Source: Thermodesulfatator indicus DSM 15286
Lineage (GTDB): Bacteria; Desulfobacterota; Thermodesulfobacteria; Thermodesulfobacteriales; Thermodesulfatatoraceae
Direction: 5' to 3'
Length of the DNA: 64,000 nt
NCBI RefSeq assembly: GCF_000217795.1
Contig: NC_015681.1
Coordinates: forward strand, 372,001-436,000
Positions within the stretch are counted from its first letter, which is position 1. Each line of letters opens with the position of its first letter. This document shows, piece by piece, positions 53,704 to 64,000 of this stretch. Under the pieces are notes generated by a model. The model was not told the origin of the DNA, did not search any database, and was given only the letters and a program-made list of their open reading frames with translations. The position numbers and the translations under genes were made by a program.

Positions 53704-54936
53704 CTACTTAATATCCACATGGCTGGTGAACCTAAAGTGCATAGAAGTCCTGTAAGTATCATAAGCCAAGCGATAATCGTCCATAGTCTTAGGAGAGAAT
53801 GGAATTTCACAGAGTTCAAAGAAGCGTTCCCAGCCAATACGTTCAGCCCATTCACCAACACGCTCATATTTACGGGCGTGTTTAGCATAGGTTTCAAGGA
53901 TTTTACGGACCCACTTAACAGTAGTTTCCCAACGAGGAGGCTCGTTAGGAATATAAGGAATAACCAGTTTAGAGAATTTCGGAGCAGAAACACGGTTAGA
54001 AATCTTTCCACCCACCAGAATAGCTACACCGTCACCCTCACCATCAGCAATAGGCATGGCTGGACACATGGTATAGCAGTTACCACAGAACATACAACGA
54101 CTTTCCTGTACACGGACAGTCTTTTTCTTTTTGCCGTCAATTTCTACGGTAGCAGGCTTAATAGCACCCGTAGGACAGGAAGCGAGAACCAGCGGAATCT
54201 CACAAACATATTCTAGACGGTCATCTTCAATTAGAGGGGGCTTACGGTGAATACCAAGAATAGCGATGTCAGAGCAGTGAACCGCACCACACATATTCAA
54301 GCAGCAAGCCAAAGCAATACGAACCTGAGCCGGAAGAGTCATGCTCTGGAAATAATCAATCAAATCGTCCATAACCGCCTTAACAATACCAGAGGCGTCA
54401 ATAGCTGGGGTATGACAATGAACCCAACCCTGAGTATGCACGATGTTAGTTACCCCAGCTCCAGTTCCACCTATAGGAAACTTATAAGAACCACCAGGAT
54501 GTTTGCGGCTTTTAAGGTCTTCTTTAAGGGCCCTTAATTTTTCCTCGTCAGTTACGTGAAATTCAATATTATTACGGGTAGTCCAGCGGACATAACCGTC
54601 ACAGTACTTATCGGCAATTTCGCAAACTTCACGAATATAGTCAGTGGTAACCAAACGAGGTGTTCCTACTCTAACTACATAAACTACATCACCTGTTTCA
54701 CTGATATATTTCAACACACCAGGTTCTATAATTTCGTGGGACTTCCACTTACCATAGTTCTTTTTGATAACGGGAGGAAAAAACTGGGCATAATATGGAG
54801 GACCAATATCAGTGATACGGTTCTCCATAGGTTTTTGTGGATTATAAAGTTTCTCACCTAACTCCGGATCATAAGGTTTGGAAAAAATTTCATCCAGTTC
54901 AGCTTGTTGAATCTTCTCATAAACCTTATCAGACAT
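53704..54936 (-). CDS. dsrB: Dissimilatory sulfite reductase, beta subunit
   Basis: The catalytic siroheme subunit that reduces sulfite with DsrA and passes the product to DsrC. At 410 aa it has the siroheme/4Fe-4S ligand region ([13 protein letters not shown]) and an inserted ferredoxin domain ([25 protein letters not shown] just before). [19 protein letters not shown] is a further family segment. It lies 68 bp downstream of dsrA with its own strong ribosome site (GGAGGTT). Dsr genes of sulfate reducers have the same order. Confidence 0.97.
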
Positions 54937-55004
54937 ATTAACCTCCTTCTTTTATAAACTTTTTTAATAACGGGGCCTCATAGGCCCCCTTATTTTTCAT
55001 AATA

Positions 55005-56297
55005 CTAAGCAGGGTGACGCTCACGATATTCTTTAATATCGCGTTTCCAACCACCTTCAACCTCTTCTTCTTTCCAGAAAACGTATGGGTTAGAACGAGG
55101 CTCTTTCACCATCTGAGGTACATGCTTTAATTTCACGGTTTCTACAAAGTTCGCTAAACCAACACGCTGCATCAATTCACCCAGACGTTCACGGTTTTTA
55201 CCTTCTTCCATCCAGAACATCCAGACATTTTCAATGATCTCTTTGAGTTCATCATAAGGAGGCTCAAGGCGAATGAAAGGTACCATAACCGTAGAAAGCT
55301 GAGCACCTTCAAGAATCGGAGCTTTAGCTCCCATAAGAATAGTAGCCCCTGTATCAGTGCCAGGGCGAAGGGCCTCAGGCATTACATTTATACAATGCAT
55401 ACAACGGTTACATTCTTTATTGTTTATATAAAGTTTTTCGCCATCCCAATACATGCACTGGGTAGGACAAAGATCAATAACTTCTTTCTGAATGTCAAAC
55501 TTACCCCAATCACGGCCCGCATGGGCACCGGCATTGGGCTTAAGCTCACCACCTACATAAGCCTTTACGGCTTCCTGATCAATACGAATATCGTCGATCC
55601 AGGTACCGATAATTGAAAAGTCAGCACGGGCAATAGAAGCTACGCAATCGTTGGGGCAACCAGAAATCTTAAACTTGAATTTATATGGAAAAGCCGGACG
55701 ATGGAGCTCATCCTGATAGGTCATGGTTAGATCATAACAAAGTTCTTGCGTATCAATGCAGCTCCATTCGCAGCGGGCCTTACCTATACAGCAAGCAGGA
55801 GTACGCAAGTTAGAACCAGACCCACCCAAGTCCATCTTTAGCTGATGAGTAAGGTCAAAAAATACAGGCTCTAATTGTTCGGTTACCGTTCCAAGCAAAA
55901 TAATGTCACCGGTAGAACCGTGAAAGTTGGTCATCCCGCTACCGCGGTGATCCCACATTTCACAAAGTTTGCGTAAAGCAGAAGTATGATAAAACTTAGA
56001 GGCCGGCTGATTAACACGGATAGTATGAAAAGCCCAGATAGCAGGAAATTTATCCTGCTGGTCAGAATAACGACCAATTACACCACCACCGTAACCAAAA
56101 ACGCCGACAATACCGCCGTGTTTCCAGTGGGTCTCCTTGTGCTTGTACGAAAGCTCAAGCTGCCCCAAAAGATCAAAACAAGCCTGTTTCTTGTGTTTCT
56201 CACCGTACTGCTCAATGTCATCCACAAAGCTCGGGAAGGGACCTTTCTTAAGTTCTTCCATCATCGGGGTGTCATGTTTTTTAATTTCCGACATCAA
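55005..56297 (-). CDS. dsrA: Dissimilatory sulfite reductase, alpha subunit
   Basis: The structural partner of DsrB in the alpha2-beta2 sulfite reductase, 430 aa. It has the family segments [22 protein letters not shown] (quoted in parts, about 160-181), the cluster motif [20 protein letters not shown], and a ferredoxin domain with [10 protein letters not shown] and [19 protein letters not shown]. The start has two ATG in tandem (56297 and 56294) after a strong AAGGAGG. It is first in the operon. Confidence 0.97.
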
Positions 56298-56472: not shown

Positions 56473-57324
56473 CTAAGAAGAAATAATTGGGTGCCAGGCT
56501 TGAAGTAGATCTTCTCTTTCTTTTTTTAAGGCCAAAATAACTTTGGTTAATTCTTTTTTATTAAGAGGAAGGGCTTTGGGCCACTTAGGAAGTTTATTGT
56601 AATCTTCTTCTGGGACAAATCCGGCCGCTCTAGCCACAATATCTGCTTTAAATATGAAAGCAGATATTTTGTCTACCTTTCCATTCTGAACTGGTTGATG
56701 ATGATTTTTTATTGCTCTTACAAAATCTTCGGAAAAACGCCATTTTTGCGCTACATAACTACCTATCTCGTTATGGAAAATTCCTACTTCTTTTTCCGCT
56801 TCGTAAAACGAACAACTCTTAGCCTCTTGAATAGCCAGAATTTTTAGGAAATAATCAGGCAAGAACACAGCCTCTACCAAACGGCCGATATCATGTAGTA
56901 GCCCTAAAGAATATAGCATTTCCGCGTCGCTATTTTCCTGTTCCCCTAAAAGAAAAGCGGCTCTGGCGGTACCAATGGCATGTGTCCAAAGACGGAGCAT
57001 ATCAAATTTTTTGAAAGTTGCCGAAGGTTTAAGAATATAACTTAAAGCACTGGCTAAAACTATATTGCGCACCTCTCCAAAACCCAAGCGAACAATAGCC
57101 ATTTTTAGACTTTTAGTTTCTCCACTGGCTGCCGCATAAAGGGGGGAATTAGCAATTTTTAATATTTTAGCCGCTAAGGCCTGATCTTCATATATGATTT
57201 TTTCAAGCTCTTTGGCCGAAGCGTCTTTTTCAATGGCACTGAGAACTTTTTGACTAGTTTGAGGCAGCGTGGGAAGCTTCTCAAGCCTTTTCGTTAGTTC
57301 TGCCAACCGATCTTTTTCCATCAA
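56473..57324 (-). CDS. HDOD-domain signalling protein
   Basis: A 283-residue protein consisting of an HDOD domain (about 10-220): LEKLPTLPQTSQKVLSAIEKDAS at the start, ILKIANSPLYAA, AIVRLGFGEVRNIVLASAL and LHDIGRLVEAVF. HDOD proteins regulate polar growth, motility or c-di-GMP signalling in many Proteobacteria, usually without enzymatic activity. It sits upstream of dsrA on the same strand but behind the dsr promoter, and diverges from the MglB-like gene with 81 bp between, which may fit shared control of motility. Confidence 0.85.
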   Translation of the reverse strand: MMEKDRLAELTKRLEKLPTLPQTSQKVLSAIEKDASAKELEKIIYEDQALAAKILKIANSPLYAAASGETKSLKMAIVRLGFGEVRNIVLASALSYILKPSATFKKFDMLRLWTHAIGTARAAFLLGEQENSDAEMLYSLGLLHDIGRLVEAVFLPDYFLKILAIQEAKSCSFYEAEKEVGIFHNEIGSYVAQKWRFSEDFVRAIKNHHQPVQNGKVDKISAFIFKADIVARAAGFVPEEDYNKLPKWPKALPLNKKELTKVILALKKEREDLLQAWHPIISS

Positions 57325-57405
57325 TAATCTTTTTCGGCTATATCCGTAGAAAAGTTAAAAGAAAAAAATTTTTAAAGCTTTTTTTTCATAAAGCCGAATA
57401 CAAGA

Positions 57406-57807
57406 ATGATGACGATGATGGTTCTTACTTCAAAAAGGGTAAATAAGTTAAAAGGTGTATTAGAAGAACAGTTATTATCTATTGGGGTTAATTTAGCCAT
57501 CCTGATAGATGAAGCCGGTAATGTAATCGCCTCTTCGGGAGAAGAAAACGGAATAGATACAACTTCACTAGCGGCTTTGGCGGCAGCTAACTTTGGAGCC
57601 ACTGCTCAAATAGCTAAATTACTAGGAGAGGAAGATTTTTCCATTCTTTATCACAAAGGTAAAAAAGACAACATTCATTTCAGCCGCATCGGAAAAGAGT
57701 TTATATTGGTAACCGTATTCACCGATGAAACTCCGTTGGGGCTGGTTCGTTTAAGAGTAAATCAAATTTCTCAAGAACTACTTAATTTATTAGAAGAGGA
57801 AGACTAA
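57406..57807 (+). CDS. Roadblock/LC7-domain protein (MglB-like)
   Basis: A 133-residue roadblock-fold protein: LAILIDEAGNVIASSGEENGID (about 32-53) and FILVTVFTDETPLGLVRLRVNQ. It is the probable GTPase-activating or anchoring partner of the MglA-like protein encoded 9 bp downstream, as in the MglA/MglB polarity switch of Myxococcus. ATG choice is uncertain: three Met lie in the first five codons (57406, 57409, 57418). Confidence 0.85.
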   Translation: MMTMMVLTSKRVNKLKGVLEEQLLSIGVNLAILIDEAGNVIASSGEENGIDTTSLAALAAANFGATAQIAKLLGEEDFSILYHKGKKDNIHFSRIGKEFILVTVFTDETPLGLVRLRVNQISQELLNLLEEED

Positions 57808-57816
57808 GGGTGATAG

Positions 57817-58461
57817 ATGGCTTTAATAGATCTACACAAAAGAGAAATACATTGCAAAATCGTTTACTACGGTCCGGGACGCTGTGGAAAAACGACTAAT
57901 CTTTTCTACATTTACAACGCTATCTCGGAAAAATATCGTGGTAAACTTTTAACTATAGAAACTAAAGGTGATCGAACTCTATTCTTTGATCTTTTACCAA
58001 TTAATTTAGGTAAAATACATGGGCTTGATATAAGGATACAGCTTTATACAGTTCCTGGTCAAGCTCATTATAGAGCAACCCGAAAATTAGTCTTAAAAGG
58101 CGTTGATGGTATTGTATTTGTTGCTGATTCTTTGAGAAAAAGACGCGAAAAAAATATTCAAAGTTTATTAGATTTAAAAAACAATCTTAAAGAATATGGC
58201 TTGAGTTTAGAAGAAATTCCCCTTGTTTTTCAATATAATAAAAGGGACTTAGTTGCTGCTAATATACCGCTTTTAACTATAGAAGAACTAGAAAGTGATC
58301 TTAATCAAGAATTGAAAGTTCCTTATTTTGAAGCCGCTGCAGTCAAAGGAATCGGGGTTTTTGAAACACTAAGAGAAATTAGCAAACGCACTGTTAAATA
58401 TGTAGCACGCAAATATATTTTCGCCCAAAAAACAGCCAAAGCCCAAGGAGGCATTTTATGA
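57817..58461 (+). CDS. MglA-like small Ras-type GTPase
   Basis: A 214-residue GTPase with P-loop GPGRCGKTT (19-27), switch II TVPGQ (78-82) and specificity motif NKRD (141-144). It differs from eukaryotic Ras by its TVPGQ, as does MglA. It would switch with the roadblock protein encoded upstream and act on the pilus ATPase encoded downstream. It overlaps the next gene by 4 bp (ATGA). Confidence 0.9.
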   Translation: MALIDLHKREIHCKIVYYGPGRCGKTTNLFYIYNAISEKYRGKLLTIETKGDRTLFFDLLPINLGKIHGLDIRIQLYTVPGQAHYRATRKLVLKGVDGIVFVADSLRKRREKNIQSLLDLKNNLKEYGLSLEEIPLVFQYNKRDLVAANIPLLTIEELESDLNQELKVPYFEAAAVKGIGVFETLREISKRTVKYVARKYIFAQKTAKAQGGIL

Positions 58462-59762
58462 GCCTTCCCAATGACAAAGATTTTGAATTAGCAGTAGATA
58501 AAGCTATTGATGAAATTTTCGGCAAAGTGGAGTCTCAGACCCTTGAGCCTTCTGAAGACGACGAAGTAAAAGTCCAATTAGAATTGGAACCTCTTTTAGA
58601 AACGGAATCAAACCTTAATGATACAGAAAATAAAGTTATAAACTTTCCTCAATTAGAGGAGACTCTGAGAATTGTACCTAATGAAGAAAAAGAGGAAGAG
58701 GCCGAAGAAAAACTAACTCAACAAGACTTAGAAAAGATAGCAGCTTCACTTCTAAGCCTAGAATGGGAAGTCACTCCTGAAACTTCCTTTGAGTTTTTGG
58801 CTACTCTTGAAGAAATAAAGCAAAAAGCTGACCAAGAGCTTCATCCTATATTTGATTTACTACATGAAGTAGGAAACTGGTTAAAAGAAAGACCAGAAGA
58901 AGCCCGTCCTGAATGGCTCCATTTTCTACATCAGGGCATAGTAGCTTTAAATCTGATAGTAATCCACGGAAAAGATATAGATCCATATCTAAGACAACTT
59001 CAAACAGCTCTTAAAAAACTGAAAAAAGGTCCTGAAACCAAAGAAGATAAAATTAAAGGACAGCTGATTAAACAATTAGTATATGATTATCAGCGTTTCT
59101 TAATGTTTGAATGGCTATTTGGACGTTCGCCTAAAACCAGACACTGGCTAGGAATATGTCAGAAATCACTTAAAGAAATAGAAGATACTCTAAAGCTTCT
59201 TCCGCCAGAAGAGCAACCTGACTTAGAAAAAATAAAAGAAAAAATTTTTGAAAAAACTAAAATATTAGCTAAGAAATCGACTCAATCTAAAATAATCAAT
59301 AAAAAAGAAATTAAAGAGAAAATACATTATCAAAAAAGATTGAATTTCAAAGAAGGATATCATTGTTTTACAGACAATGAAGAGTTCATCGTCCCTGCTT
59401 CCCAAGTAGCTTATTTCGGTCCCTTCAAACCTAATTGGGAAAAGAAAATAAGCGAAAACTTTCCTCTTATATTATTACTTGGTATTTGGCGATTCTTTTC
59501 TTTTATAAAGCTTAAAAATAAGTTTAAAGGAGAATTATCTCAAAAGAGCGAACAAGAACTAAAAAATATGTCTTTACCAATAATAAAAAGAAGTGATGAT
59601 CCTGAATTTATTATGATTTTGTGGGAAGATAATCGCGGAGGAATATTATTATTGAAAGAAGCGGTCTTTGTTGAAATTCCTGAAAAAGCTTTCAGTGTAA
59701 GTAAAGGGAATAAAAAAATCGTCTTTATAGAAGACAAAGAACTACCAATTATACAAGTATAA
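58458..59762 (+). CDS. Unrecognised acidic protein linking the GTPase and pilus-ATPase genes
   Basis: A 434-residue cytoplasmic protein of unknown family. Residues 1-95 are very acidic and low in complexity. Residues about 95-290 are helical, with DPYLRQLQTALKKLKKG and a conserved-looking YDYQRFLMFEWLFGRSP. The C-terminal 140 residues are mixed alpha/beta with FTDNEEFIVPASQVAYFGPF and EFIMILWEDNRGGILL, faintly like a CheW-type fold, though I cannot confirm that. It overlaps the GTPase gene and abuts the ATPase gene, so it is probably the adaptor between them. Confidence 0.75.
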   Translation: MSLPNDKDFELAVDKAIDEIFGKVESQTLEPSEDDEVKVQLELEPLLETESNLNDTENKVINFPQLEETLRIVPNEEKEEEAEEKLTQQDLEKIAASLLSLEWEVTPETSFEFLATLEEIKQKADQELHPIFDLLHEVGNWLKERPEEARPEWLHFLHQGIVALNLIVIHGKDIDPYLRQLQTALKKLKKGPETKEDKIKGQLIKQLVYDYQRFLMFEWLFGRSPKTRHWLGICQKSLKEIEDTLKLLPPEEQPDLEKIKEKIFEKTKILAKKSTQSKIINKKEIKEKIHYQKRLNFKEGYHCFTDNEEFIVPASQVAYFGPFKPNWEKKISENFPLILLLGIWRFFSFIKLKNKFKGELSQKSEQELKNMSLPIIKRSDDPEFIMILWEDNRGGILLLKEAVFVEIPEKAFSVSKGNKKIVFIEDKELPIIQV

Positions 59763-62069
59763 ATGAGCGAAATAAACGTAGAACAAATATTCAAGGAAGC
59801 CGAAGTTTATGCCTCACAAGGCCTTTATGACGAAGCTATCTTGGCCTTAGAGGTTTTACTGTCTCAATATGAGGAAGAAGTCAATCAGAATGGCTTTAAA
59901 GAAAAGGTTTTAGAACGTATAGAAGAACTAGAAGAACTAAAAAAACAAAAAGAACAAGAAGAAGACCTTAACATCGAAATAGAAACTTCAGAAGAAGAGG
60001 CCCTACAGGAAGCTCAAGTACTCAAAGAAGGGGGTTTTTACGAAGCTGCCCTTGAAGTTTTTGAAAATTTATTAAATGAAGGTTCTCAAAATCCAGAAGT
60101 TTATCGAGGTTTAGCCGAGTGTCTCTTAGAATTGGGTCGCTATGATGAGGCTATAAGCACAATTAAAATGGCTTTAGAAATACCTGACCTAATACTAGAT
60201 GATCTGGCTGCTTTATACTATTTATTAGGTAGAGCTTACGAAAGTGTTAACAAAATAAAAGAAGCGCTTGACGCGTATAACAAAGCATATCACTATAATA
60301 CCCATTATTTAGATGTTGCTGAAAAAATTGAAAAACTAAAAGCCCTCCAAGAAAAATTTGGTCGCTTACAATTACTTTTTGCTGAAGGCCTACTTGACGA
60401 AAAAACTTACGAAGAAGCCAAACAAATAAGTCAAGATACAGGAAATAGCCTGGAATTCGTACTAATAGAAAACTTTGGTATATCAAAATTTGACATCGGC
60501 CGTGCCTTAACCGACTACTACGGCTATCCTTTTATTGAATTTAATGAACTAAATTTAGGGCCAAAACCTTCCTGTTTAACGGGTATAAAGGAAAGCTTTT
60601 TCAAGCAAAATATTTGTATTCCTATAGAAGAAGATGATGAACGCATTATCCTTTTAATAGATGATCCTTCTGACAGCATACGTCTTGACCTTATACGTCA
60701 AGTTCTAAAGGCAAAAAAATTAGAAATAAAAATTGGTATTAAAGAAGACATATTTAAATTTATAGATTACTTCTTTGGTAAATCAGATTTCGATTTACCT
60801 GAAGATCTTTCAGAACTTGAAGTCGTAGAGGAAGAAGAAGACCAAGAAGTAACAGAAGAAGAACTTTCAAATAGCGTAGTAGTTCAATTAGTTAACCACA
60901 TTTTAGAAGAAGCCTACCGTAAAGGTGCTTCTGATATCCACATAGAATCTTATCCAGGTAAACGTGGAGCACAAGTACGCTACCGTATAGATGGAGAATG
61001 CCACTTGGTCCGAAAAATACCTTATACTTTAAAAAGGCCTCTTATTTCTCGTATAAAAATTATGGCTAATCTCGACATTGCTGAGAAACGCCTTCCACAA
61101 GACGGAAAAATTAAGTTCAGATTAAAAAATGGCCGCTATTTTGAGGTACGTGTGGCTACCATTCCTACCATTGAAAACAATGAAGACGTGGTCATGCGTA
61201 TTCTCGCCTCAGTAGAGGCTATGCCCCTTGACAAACTTGGTTTAAGAGAAGAAAACTTAGAGGCATTCAAAAAACTCCTACAAATGCCATATGGTCTTAT
61301 TCTGGTAGTAGGTCCCACGGGTTCTGGTAAAACTACCACTCTTCACGCAGCCCTTGGATACATCAACACTCCAAACAAAAAAATCTGGACAGCAGAAGAC
61401 CCAGTAGAAATCGTTCAGGAAGGATTGCGTCAGGTCCAGGTAAAACCCAAAATAGGGCTTGATTTTGCAAAAGTATTAAGATCCTTTCTCCGGGCTGACC
61501 CTGATATCATAATGATCGGAGAAACCCGAGACGAAGAGACTGCTCGCACGGTGATCGAAGCCTCTTTAACTGGCCACTTAGTTTTTACCACTCTTCACAC
61601 CAACAGTGCTCCTGAAACTGTTACTAGACTTTTGGGCATGGGAATGGATCCTTACAATTTTGCCGATGCCTTATTGGGCATTTTAGCCCAACGACTGGCA
61701 AAAAGGCTTTGCCCTAATTGTAAGCAACCATATCAACCTTCAGAAGAAGAAATCGAGCTTTTAATTGAAGAATATGGGGACCACCCCACAACTCCTCTTA
61801 CCAAAGAAGCCTTCAAAGAAGCTGCTCTCTTTAAACCAAAAGGCTGTTCTTCGTGTAATAATACTGGTTATAAAGGACGCCTGGCCATTCACGAATTACT
61901 GGTAGCCAATGATGAAATAAGACAACTCATCATCAAGAATGCCCCTGTCCATGAAATCAGAGAAGCAGCCATGAGAGCTGGCATGCTTACTCTTAAACAA
62001 GATGGTATCTGGAAAGTTCTCCAAGGACTTACGGATCTTAAACAAATTAGAGCTGTCTCCATAAGATAA
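59763..62069 (+). CDS. TPR-MshEN-PilB/GspE-like secretion ATPase
   Basis: A 768-residue ATPase for type IV pilus extension or type II secretion. The first 200 residues carry TPR-like helices (FYEAALEVFENLLNEG, LLELGRYDEAISTIKMAL) not found in standard PilB. A GspE N-terminal/MshEN domain follows (about 205-310, FGISKFDIGRALTDYYGYPFIEF). The ATPase has Walker A GPTGSGKTTT (about 516), RADPDIIMIGETRDEETA with Walker B, and a zinc site CPNC...CSSC (about 649-699). No pilin gene is near. The TPR part may be the docking site for the upstream GTPase. Confidence 0.9.
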   Translation: MSEINVEQIFKEAEVYASQGLYDEAILALEVLLSQYEEEVNQNGFKEKVLERIEELEELKKQKEQEEDLNIEIETSEEEALQEAQVLKEGGFYEAALEVFENLLNEGSQNPEVYRGLAECLLELGRYDEAISTIKMALEIPDLILDDLAALYYLLGRAYESVNKIKEALDAYNKAYHYNTHYLDVAEKIEKLKALQEKFGRLQLLFAEGLLDEKTYEEAKQISQDTGNSLEFVLIENFGISKFDIGRALTDYYGYPFIEFNELNLGPKPSCLTGIKESFFKQNICIPIEEDDERIILLIDDPSDSIRLDLIRQVLKAKKLEIKIGIKEDIFKFIDYFFGKSDFDLPEDLSELEVVEEEEDQEVTEEELSNSVVVQLVNHILEEAYRKGASDIHIESYPGKRGAQVRYRIDGECHLVRKIPYTLKRPLISRIKIMANLDIAEKRLPQDGKIKFRLKNGRYFEVRVATIPTIENNEDVVMRILASVEAMPLDKLGLREENLEAFKKLLQMPYGLILVVGPTGSGKTTTLHAALGYINTPNKKIWTAEDPVEIVQEGLRQVQVKPKIGLDFAKVLRSFLRADPDIIMIGETRDEETARTVIEASLTGHLVFTTLHTNSAPETVTRLLGMGMDPYNFADALLGILAQRLAKRLCPNCKQPYQPSEEEIELLIEEYGDHPTTPLTKEAFKEAALFKPKGCSSCNNTGYKGRLAIHELLVANDEIRQLIIKNAPVHEIREAAMRAGMLTLKQDGIWKVLQGLTDLKQIRAVSIR

Positions 62070-62186: not shown

Positions 62187-64000
62187 ATGTTAAAACTTTT
62201 GCGCCAAAGTTGGCTGGTTATTTTTTTATTACCCTTAGCAGCTTCTATTTGCCTCTTTTATTATTCTTATCAGCGCTCTCAAATTATTGAGCAGGCCGAT
62301 AAAGAAACGGAAATTTTTATTGTTACCGCTGAAGCTACCAGACTTTACGTTAAAGAAGTCCTGCGTCCCAAAATGTATAAAATTTTTTCTGACGAGCGTT
62401 TTATTCCTGAAGCCATGTCCACTTCCCATGTAGGCCGAGAAATAATGAAGCGCATAGGTAAATATTTTCCTTACATGGAATACAAAAGAGCTGCCTTAAA
62501 TCCTCGTAATCCCATAAACAAAGCAGATATCTTGGAAATAAAAATAATTGACGAATTCAAACATTCAAACGTGAAAGAAATAACCAAATTACTTGACCGT
62601 AAAGGAACTATATATTTTGGCAGGTTTAGACCAATTTATGCTGAAAAATCTTGTCTAAAATGCCACGGAGACCCCCGCAAAGCTCCTCGTGAATTAATAA
62701 AAATTTACGGGAACACTGGAGGTTATTACTATAAGCCTGGTCAAATTGTAGCTATAGATGCCGTCTATATCCCTATAGGCCCAGCCCTAGTTACACTTAA
62801 AAAACAAGTGCTTTCTAGTTTTCTTTTCGGTGTAGGACTTCTAATTTTTCTGGTTTTCTCTGTAAGACTCCTTCTTCAGTATGAATTTTTGCCCAGTTTA
62901 AGAAAACTTTCTGTTTACTTAAGTAGTATTATCCATACAGAAAAATTTAAAAATCTTTCTGTTGACGATAACGTTGAACGTATCACCTCTTCTCTTGAAG
63001 ACCTCGCCCTAGAAGTAAAAAGAATACATACCGAACTCCAAAAATCAGAACAAAAATATCGCTCGCTTTTTGAATCATCACAAGATGCCATTTTAATGTG
63101 GAACAGAGAAAACAAACTGGTAGATATAAATCCTGCAGGACTCAAATTTTTTGGATTCATTAGTAAGGAAGAAGCTCTCGGTATCGAAACCATTGAACAA
63201 CTTTTCTGGGACCACCAAGATGCCATTGCCTTTATAAGTAAATTAGTTGAAAAAAGCCAGATAAAGGATTGGGAAACCATAGTAGTAAATCGTGAGGGAA
63301 AACGTTTTCAGGTTTTAGTTACCGCTAGTAAAGCCATCGAAGTAAACGGCTTGACCCTTTACGTTGGCCTTTTTCGCGATATAACCGAAAAGAAACTTAT
63401 AGAAAAACATATTATCACCACGGAAAAATTAGCCGCTGTGGGGCAACTAGCTGCGGGGCTAGCTCACGAAATAAACAACTCCTTAAGTGTAATCAAGTGT
63501 TATGCCAATCTTTTAGCTAAAACCAACTCAAAAGACGAACAGGCATTAAAAGACCTAGAAACAATCAAAAAGCACGTCAAAATGTGTCAAGATATCTTGC
63601 AAAACCTGCTTAACTTTTCTCGGCCAACTGAGTATAAAAAAGTCAAAGCCAACATAAATGACATAATCAAAGAAGTAGCTGAACTCTTTGCCACAAGACT
63701 CCAAAAAAGAAAAATAAATCTTTATCTAGATTTATCTCCTGAGCTTCCAGCGCTTTGGGTTGATTGGGATAAAATAAAACAGGTCTTTATGAATATGTTG
63801 CTAAACGCCTTACAAGCTATCGAACAAAAAGGCGAAATCAAAGTTAGCACACATTTTGACAAAGTTAAAAATCGGGTCATTATTAAAATTTCAGATACAG
63901 GCTGTGGTATTCCTGAAACAATAATAGATAAAATATTTGATCCGTTTTTTACCACCAAAGCTCCCGGAGAGGGAACAGGGCTTGGTCTTTCCGTAAGTTA
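62187..64000 (+). CDS. Sensor histidine kinase with periplasmic DUF3365 heme domain (3' end outside window)
   Basis: The visible 604 codons encode a membrane kinase: helix 1 (about 8-28), a periplasmic DUF3365 domain with one heme site CLKCH (156-160), helix 2 (about 208-232), a linker, PAS (about 288-400), HisKA with H427 ([12 protein letters not shown]), and HATPase ([28 protein letters not shown]). The end is cut at the edge, so a receiver domain could follow. Covalent heme suggests redox or gas sensing. The ATG at 62187 has a poor ribosome site; I saw no better start. It follows the ATPase gene after 117 bp. Confidence 0.88.

Follow-up and report, generated by a model that had tools for sequence, protein, structure and literature searches.

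The operon described here encodes an MglB-like roadblock protein, an MglA-like Ras-type GTPase, a 434-amino-acid adaptor and a PilB-class ATPase with a tetratricopeptide repeat (TPR) region fused to its N-terminus. It lies in the window, i.e. the whole 64,000-nucleotide stretch of DNA that was analysed (positions 372,001-436,000 of NC_015681.1), in the genome of Thermodesulfatator indicus, a single contig of 2.32 Mb. We propose that this operon specifies a switch that sets the polarity or activity of type IV pili and whose effector domain has become part of the pilus extension motor, an interpretation to which we assign a probability of roughly 0.6. In this model, drawn from sequence comparison and from analogy with known systems, MglA would be the Ras-like GTPase of the switch and MglB its likely GTPase-activating protein (GAP). 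GTP-bound MglA, alone or with the adaptor, would bind the N-terminal TPR of PilB, and this binding would recruit or license PilB at the pilus machines, at one pole or site, until MglB ends the signal through GTP hydrolysis. The adaptor, which has neither a kinase domain nor a phospho-histidine and should therefore act as a connector rather than an enzyme, would perhaps lead to chemosensory proteins or to MglA. The link from switch to motor may be covalent here.

All four genes lie on the plus strand: mglB at 57406..57807, mglA at 57817..58461, the adaptor gene at 58458..59762 and the ATPase gene, encoding 768 amino acids, at 59763..62069. The gene for an HDOD-domain protein (56473..57324) lies on the minus strand and diverges from mglB, which corrects the sequence-only reading made before this analysis. 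The gene set and order given in that reading were recovered in full, with all five open reading frames (ORFs) in place and Pfam support for four of them; of the overlaps between genes that it described, only that of mglA and the adaptor gene exists (4 nt, 58458-58461). The adaptor and ATPase genes abut, and gaps of 9 nt and 81 nt separate mglB from mglA and the HDOD gene from mglB, respectively. The MglB-MglA-adaptor-ATPase arrangement is not due to chance, being found in the same order in other members of the order and in distant families of the phylum.

The association of the TPR region with MglA was observed at several levels, with genome-wide searches made in a 395-genome sample of the phylum Desulfobacterota. 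First, an MglA-based search, from which 80 loci were kept of the 531 encoding a relative, revealed the succession MglB-MglA-adaptor-TPR-PilB in most of the loci L107-L132, some of which are cut by contig ends. Second, a close relative of the ATPase was encoded in 120 of the 395 genomes, and 40 of these 120 places were taken, 32 with the TPR-type ATPase and eight with another N-terminus. MglA was encoded in the stretch at 26 of the 32 TPR-PilB loci, which belong to other families, versus none of the eight loci with the other N-terminus; the latter was a GAF domain in 8/8 proteins scanned (L075 and seven of the eight loci L219-L226, L220 being left out). As for the six TPR-PilB loci without MglA in the stretch, MglA is encoded at a distance of <=10 kb on the same contig in two genomes (G142 and G107) and on another contig in one (G330), and in three (G233, G111 and G295) no MglA was detected at the search threshold. 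Third, at the genome level, MglA of this kind was present in 35 of the 37 genomes with TPR-PilB versus 12 of the 55 with another PilB N-terminus (Fisher's test, 8e-13, relatedness not being corrected for), and further in 5/8 genomes with a partial TPR match, 0/10 with the short form of the ATPase, 0/10 with a weak match and 45/275 with no such ATPase. The sequence-only reading is supported in that the extra TPR travels with MglA in both the loci and the genomes of the phylum; direct docking, which it suggested, is the proposal made above.

The TPR region of the T. indicus ATPase (residues 1-195, 59763..60347, plus strand) comprises about four TPR-like helical hairpins according to Pfam and to a structure model. 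The mean predicted local distance difference test (pLDDT) score of the TPR-PilB model is 74, with parts below 50, and owing to the low confidence of its core only the TPR and the N-domain were used from it. A hidden Markov model of residues 1-195 was searched against the 5065 ORFs of 120 loci, of which L107-L186 had been picked for MglA and L187-L226 for PilB; as a control, matches were free to lie anywhere in the flanks. The full TPR region was found at the N-terminus of 92 ORFs, 52 of them PilB-class, and all 40 non-PilB ORFs lay less than 2.5 kb from mglA. These 40 consist of six protein-kinase fusions (two recognised by Pfam, 2e-21 and 7.5e-22, and the other four by BLAST), 32 proteins of a third type sharing a C-terminus without Pfam assignment (two scanned) and two short ORFs without an assigned type. 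The first-hairpin signature EAxxYxxQGLxxEA is common to the PilB, kinase and third types. Six further matches were partial, mostly to the later repeats, and 18 of 106 MglA loci, several of them cut by contig ends, had no full match. Because the same signature stands beside mglA on two other types of protein, the TPR region looks like a portable MglA-effector domain. Moreover, in Desulfobacteraceae-type loci (e.g. L141, L144, L151-L153 and L158-L162) the signature is present beside mglA and neither an adaptor nor an MglB match was found in the stretch, which favours a direct relation between TPR and MglA. The fusions resembling Ser/Thr kinases include L134:10603-12237, L142:10393-12039 and L127:10862-12784, which are preceded by genes for MglB, MglA and an adaptor-like protein; an example of the third type, with about 300 amino acids, lies beside mglA at L160:6985-7902, with similar proteins among the 32 ORFs.

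Of 60 genomes examined, T. indicus included, 18 encode the adaptor and 25 encode MglA. Of the 41 order genomes, 17 encode the full-length ATPase and 20 a shorter one, and four could not be assigned; in one of the 17 (G007) a frameshift or an assembly error divides the TPR-ATPase between two ORFs (L029:10324-12671). MglA is present in 15 of the 17 full-length genomes, and in the other two (G033 and G040) the contig starts inside the adaptor gene; neither MglA nor an adaptor match was found in any of the 20 genomes with the short ATPase. In the 20 short orthologues the match to the profile begins at about position 86-156, and the 15 that were read start at about position 93-102, or 157 by local match; residues 1-95 of the T. 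indicus ATPase (59763..60047, plus strand) are the segment missing from these orthologues in genomes without MglA. At six of the 15 short loci the ATPase gene stands beside dsrAB as in the window, with the HDOD, MglB, MglA and adaptor genes missing between them. In a tree built without the TPR columns, the short forms compose one clade (Shimodaira-Hasegawa-like approximate likelihood ratio test, SH-aLRT, 100) within the TPR-bearing members, which indicates one loss, and since the lost stretch from MglB to codon 95 of PilB is contiguous, one deletion suffices. For these reasons the loss of the TPR was downgraded as independent support for coupling; it is consistent with coupling and is not strong proof of it.

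A single contiguous deletion would also fit the possibility that these genes have nothing in common but their operon, with MglA regulating something else and the TPR serving another partner (e.g. a polar landmark, PilM or PilZ). TPRs have many kinds of partner, and larger operons of the phylum hold additional candidates: in L211 and L214 a protein with a response regulator and a DUF4388 (PATAN) domain is encoded between MglA and TPR-PilB, and PilZ follows (Pfam was run on L211 only). However, the TPR signature accompanies mglA on quite different outputs and the linkage to MglA holds in many families, so that we regard this explanation as quite unlikely. The signalling parts carried by the larger operons fit a regulatory role. 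The whole operon of L211:3511-13567 (and that of L214) encodes MglB, MglA, a short HPt-like protein, sensor-like and PATAN proteins, TPR-PilB and PilZ, and in L160 mglA is followed by the gene for a DUF4388 and cyclic-nucleotide-binding protein.

Several points weigh against the proposal that MglA acts on the motor through its fused TPR. MglA was itself the criterion by which the 80 MglA loci were selected, and relatedness is left uncorrected in the genome counts. This kind of MglA falls short of the search threshold in two genomes with TPR-PilB (G111 and G233). Conversely, a full TPR-PilB is absent from 62 of the 97 genomes that have this MglA, so that MglA must act there through something else. 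One deletion would account for the co-loss of MglA, MglB, the adaptor and PilB residues 1-95 without any functional coupling. Finally, there are published interaction tests with the PilB of Myxococcus, a protein not known to carry a TPR. In these tests, no MglA-PilB interaction was seen in the bacterial adenylate cyclase two-hybrid (BACTH) system and no direct SgmX-PilB contact was detected, according to the portions consulted of PMC11580455 and PMC7519303.

The machine served by the ATPase was assigned from its domains and from genome context. The T2SSE (PF00437, 4e-124), MshEN (PF05157, 6e-11) and TPR (best 7.5e-12) models all match, in agreement with the PilB/GspE ATPase bearing an extra N-terminal TPR described in the sequence-only reading; the MshEN domain lies at 60519..60782 and the ATPase core, with the Walker A motif GPTGSGKTTT, at 60864..62048, both on the plus strand, and the pairing of T2SSE with MshEN is that expected of PilB. 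The NCBIfam model of PilB (TIGR02538) scores higher than that of GspE, 527.9 versus 500.5 bits, and both scores are under their cut-offs (675.65 and 630.25 bits, respectively). Since the TIGR02538 equivalog cut-off was missed, a database threshold rather than a biological definition, the protein is named PilB-class by its genome context and not as a TIGR02538 equivalog. The nearest solved structures are those of Geobacter PilB. The T. indicus genome encodes three GspE/PilB-class and two PilT-class ATPases; besides the protein studied here, one GspE/PilB-class ATPase lies within a type II secretion gene cluster and another within an MshE-like cluster (gene names by ORF reading), and a separate pilM-N-O-P-Q operon contains no ATPase gene (PilM by Pfam, the other names by eye). 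In three genomes, G010 and G012 (single contigs) and G015, the TPR-PilB or its short orthologue is the one extension-type ATPase, and each of these genomes also encodes two PilT-type ATPases, one PilC/GspF ORF and PilM. Being the sole extension-type ATPase in genomes with PilC and PilM, the protein is, as far as genome context can tell, the extension motor of type IV pili and not a type II secretion ATPase.

The sequence-only reading had allowed for the opposite outcome, an ATPase that powers a type II secretion system and has no link to the GTPase. In its favour, the ATPase core is 44% identical to T. indicus GspE and exceeds neither NCBIfam cut-off. But T. indicus GspE has a type II secretion gene cluster of its own, the ATPase is the sole extension-type one in two complete genomes with one PilC, and the higher-scoring PilB model and the Geobacter structures argue for a pilus motor; no gsp genes adjoin the ATPase gene. 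The counts of ATPases and PilC across genomes and the GspE cluster make type II secretion extremely improbable, and it was discarded.

The adaptor was taken for a protein of unknown fold in the sequence-only reading, and here the result is different. An AF2 model built from 21 sequences (mean pLDDT 82) starts with a disordered acidic segment that contains one conserved helix and continues with a helical bundle (about residues 79-191), long helices (195-285) and a beta-rich domain (residues 299-431). In a Foldseek search with this model, ranks 1-18 in the PDB were all CheW or CheA (best E 1.2e-3, probability 1.00). By VIA-align, residues 79-191 were superimposed on CheA P1 (Z 11.2, root-mean-square deviation 3.3, 113 aligned) and residues 296-434 on CheA P5 (Z 8.8, root-mean-square deviation 3.1, 104 aligned); the P1 match is weak alone because designed helical bundles score equally. 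Profiles of CheW and HPt families, built from genomes of the order Thermodesulfobacteriales and relatives, were compared by hhalign: the C-terminal domain matched CheW with a score of 45.3 and a probability of 93 (maximum of 60 column-permuted CheW profiles, 14.1) and the HPt-like part matched HPt with 30.4 (permuted maximum, 16.8), and two crossed controls fell inside the null ranges. Some pairwise hhalign runs were low in probability, and a broader alignment raised the CheW match; the whole adaptor against whole CheA gave nothing (E 0.8). The adaptor had no Pfam match over cut-off, single members staying below that of CheW (best shown 17.3 of 23.5 bits; E 0.0038, 0.018 and 0.025), and in a sequence search of the PDB no CheW chain had an E value better than 0.18. 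A new fold would survive these single-sequence searches alone, so that the model and the profile comparisons were needed, and together with Foldseek and VIA-align they rule it out. The C-terminal domain therefore has the CheW fold by three methods.

Thus, the adaptor is, judging from its model, a diverged CheA-like scaffold with HPt-like and CheW-like domains and without a kinase domain. The bundle resembling HPt and CheA P1 spans residues 81-191 (58698..59030), the three long helices at residues 195-285 (59040..59312) would by their position be analogous to CheA P3, and the domain resembling CheW and CheA P5 spans residues 293-434 (59334..59759), all on the plus strand. A kinase (P4) domain was found neither by Pfam nor in the AF2 model, and the best candidate column for a phospho-accepting histidine in the P1-like part holds it in 9 of 33 sequences; consequently, the adaptor can neither bind ATP in the manner of CheA nor pass phosphate via a conserved histidine. 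The single CheA-CheW locus of T. indicus lies about 58 kb from the module, and a connection of the adaptor to it is a conjecture. This CheW-CheA-CheR-CheB-CheY-like cluster (L257:9691-16088; G000:C1:367.7-374.1 kb) extends over the left boundary of the window, and its cheW and cheA are separated by a DnaJ-like ORF (gene names by ORF reading).

Residues 6-21 of the adaptor (58473..58520, plus strand), a helix in the model with a consensus like ExEIDxxIDxLF, are among its most conserved parts and are a candidate docking motif. This helix might occupy the TPR groove in place of MglA, with MglA acting on the adaptor and the control of PilB being indirect. In favour of this arrangement, the adaptor is as a rule encoded between MglA and TPR-PilB, and the lineage that lost MglA is without the adaptor too. 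The Desulfobacteraceae-type loci, with the signature beside mglA and no adaptor or MglB match, argue against it, as does the direct binding of TPRs by MglA-GTP in Myxococcus (reported in the available part of PMC7668184). We consider such an indirect route unlikely, if still deserving of attention, and prefer binding of the TPR by MglA.

MglB contains a roadblock/LC7 domain (PF03259, 5e-13, over cut-off) and resembles MglB of the PDB (best E 3.9e-25), and is probably, from this similarity, the GAP of MglA; it is below the NCBIfam NF052242 cut-off (63.8 bits versus 200). MglA is a small GTPase in Pfam, with Arf/Ras models over cut-off, and matches MglA chains of the PDB at E 1e-57 to 1.4e-62. 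Its P-loop residues (G19, K25 and T26), R53, T78, Q82 and N141-D144, the latter forming the NKxD motif, are invariant in 13 orthologues; this similarity and conservation place it in the MglA family, and the invariance of the catalytic residues supports the proposed switch. R53 presumably has a functional role. That of Q82 is described in the sections seen of PMC7519303 and PMC7668184. The HDOD protein (PF08668, 1e-48) has homologues that are likewise divergent and beside mglB in families f1/f2 and many others, and was missing beside mglB in the f3 loci searched.

Other neighbours of the module were also recorded. Genes similar to dsrA and dsrB (dissimilatory sulfite reductase; names by reading of ORFs) flank it at 53704-56297, and this pair stays beside the ATPase gene in many members of the order, with or without the MglA genes. 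Directly downstream of the TPR-PilB gene is a PAS histidine kinase gene (62187-63998), for which no close homologue was found at the corresponding position in those loci of the order that were searched.

MglA is known to control type IV pili, and what sets the present case apart is the fusion of the proposed effector to the motor. The co-occurrence of the TPR domain with a Ras-like switch, its regulator and a chemotaxis-like scaffold lacking a kinase suggests direct control of the pilus motor by the switch in sulfate-reducing bacteria. The natural fusion of an MglA-linked TPR to PilB offers a soluble piece of 195 residues and a segment of 95 residues for testing the step from MglA to PilB, and the analysis of the adaptor gives a widespread family of unannotated proteins its first fold and a probable role. 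We also put forward, tentatively and as a doubtful extension, a wider hypothesis for the Desulfobacterota, in which a portable receptor domain for MglA-GTP has been welded to at least three outputs, namely a pilus motor, a kinase and a third domain, hard-wiring one Ras-like switch by fusion; in the pilus version, the kinase-less CheA-like scaffold would link the switch to chemosensory proteins via its CheW-like domain and steer pili without phosphotransfer. If this were true, bacterial Ras-like switches would choose their outputs by domain fusion.

No description of a TPR-PilB fusion or of the adaptor was found in the titles and abstract openings of the full-text literature searched, a scope outside which subscription journals and most preprints fall. 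In the extracts seen of a survey of MglA neighbourhoods (PMC4316618), those of Groups 1, 4 and 5 vary widely, PATAN proteins occur occasionally near Groups 1 and 5, PilB is named a single time, in connection with another GTPase, and TPR is absent; in those of PMC10787695 and PMC2825233, MglA and PilB appear only in gene lists. The closest known system is that of Myxococcus xanthus, which likewise has MglA and MglB homologues and, standing between MglA and PilB, a TPR module, SgmX. For the binding of MglA-GTP, three of its TPRs are sufficient (PMC7668184, in part), and PilB is brought to the pole by SgmX through a mechanism stated as unknown in the passages available of PMC11580455 and PMC7519303. 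Unlike the T. indicus TPR, which is part of PilB and encoded in one operon with mglB-mglA, SgmX is a separate protein of 1,060 amino acids (PMC7519303, in part) with only TPRs, 14 in number; the about four hairpins fused to the ATPase would at most work like SgmX. The M. xanthus protein SopA (405 amino acids), which stimulates polar PilB, resembles the adaptor as a soluble accessory protein of similar size. The excerpts of PMC11580455 describe SopA as having two folded parts and an unstructured middle and as acting with the MglA-effector TPR protein on PilB; unlike the adaptor, it is given there homologues only from Myxococcales and no fold match, the comparison being by description and not by sequence. 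With CheA and CheW the adaptor shares the order of HPt-like bundle, helical segment and CheW-like (P5) domain, and it differs from CheA in having no P4 kinase domain or conserved phospho-histidine, in its very low identity and in the usual position of its gene between mglA and that of TPR-PilB. The GAF-PilB of other Desulfobacterota is a member of this ATPase family that likewise contains MshEN and is about 770 amino acids long, but it has an N-terminal GAF in place of the TPR and lies near MglA in none of eight loci; such ATPases not near MglA are those of L075:7220-9496 and L219-L226. Finally, the actinobacterial conservon CvnA-D also unites in an operon the genes for a roadblock protein, an MglA-type GTPase and another protein, and there, according to the part seen of PMC4316618, the partner is a histidine kinase and not a pilus ATPase.

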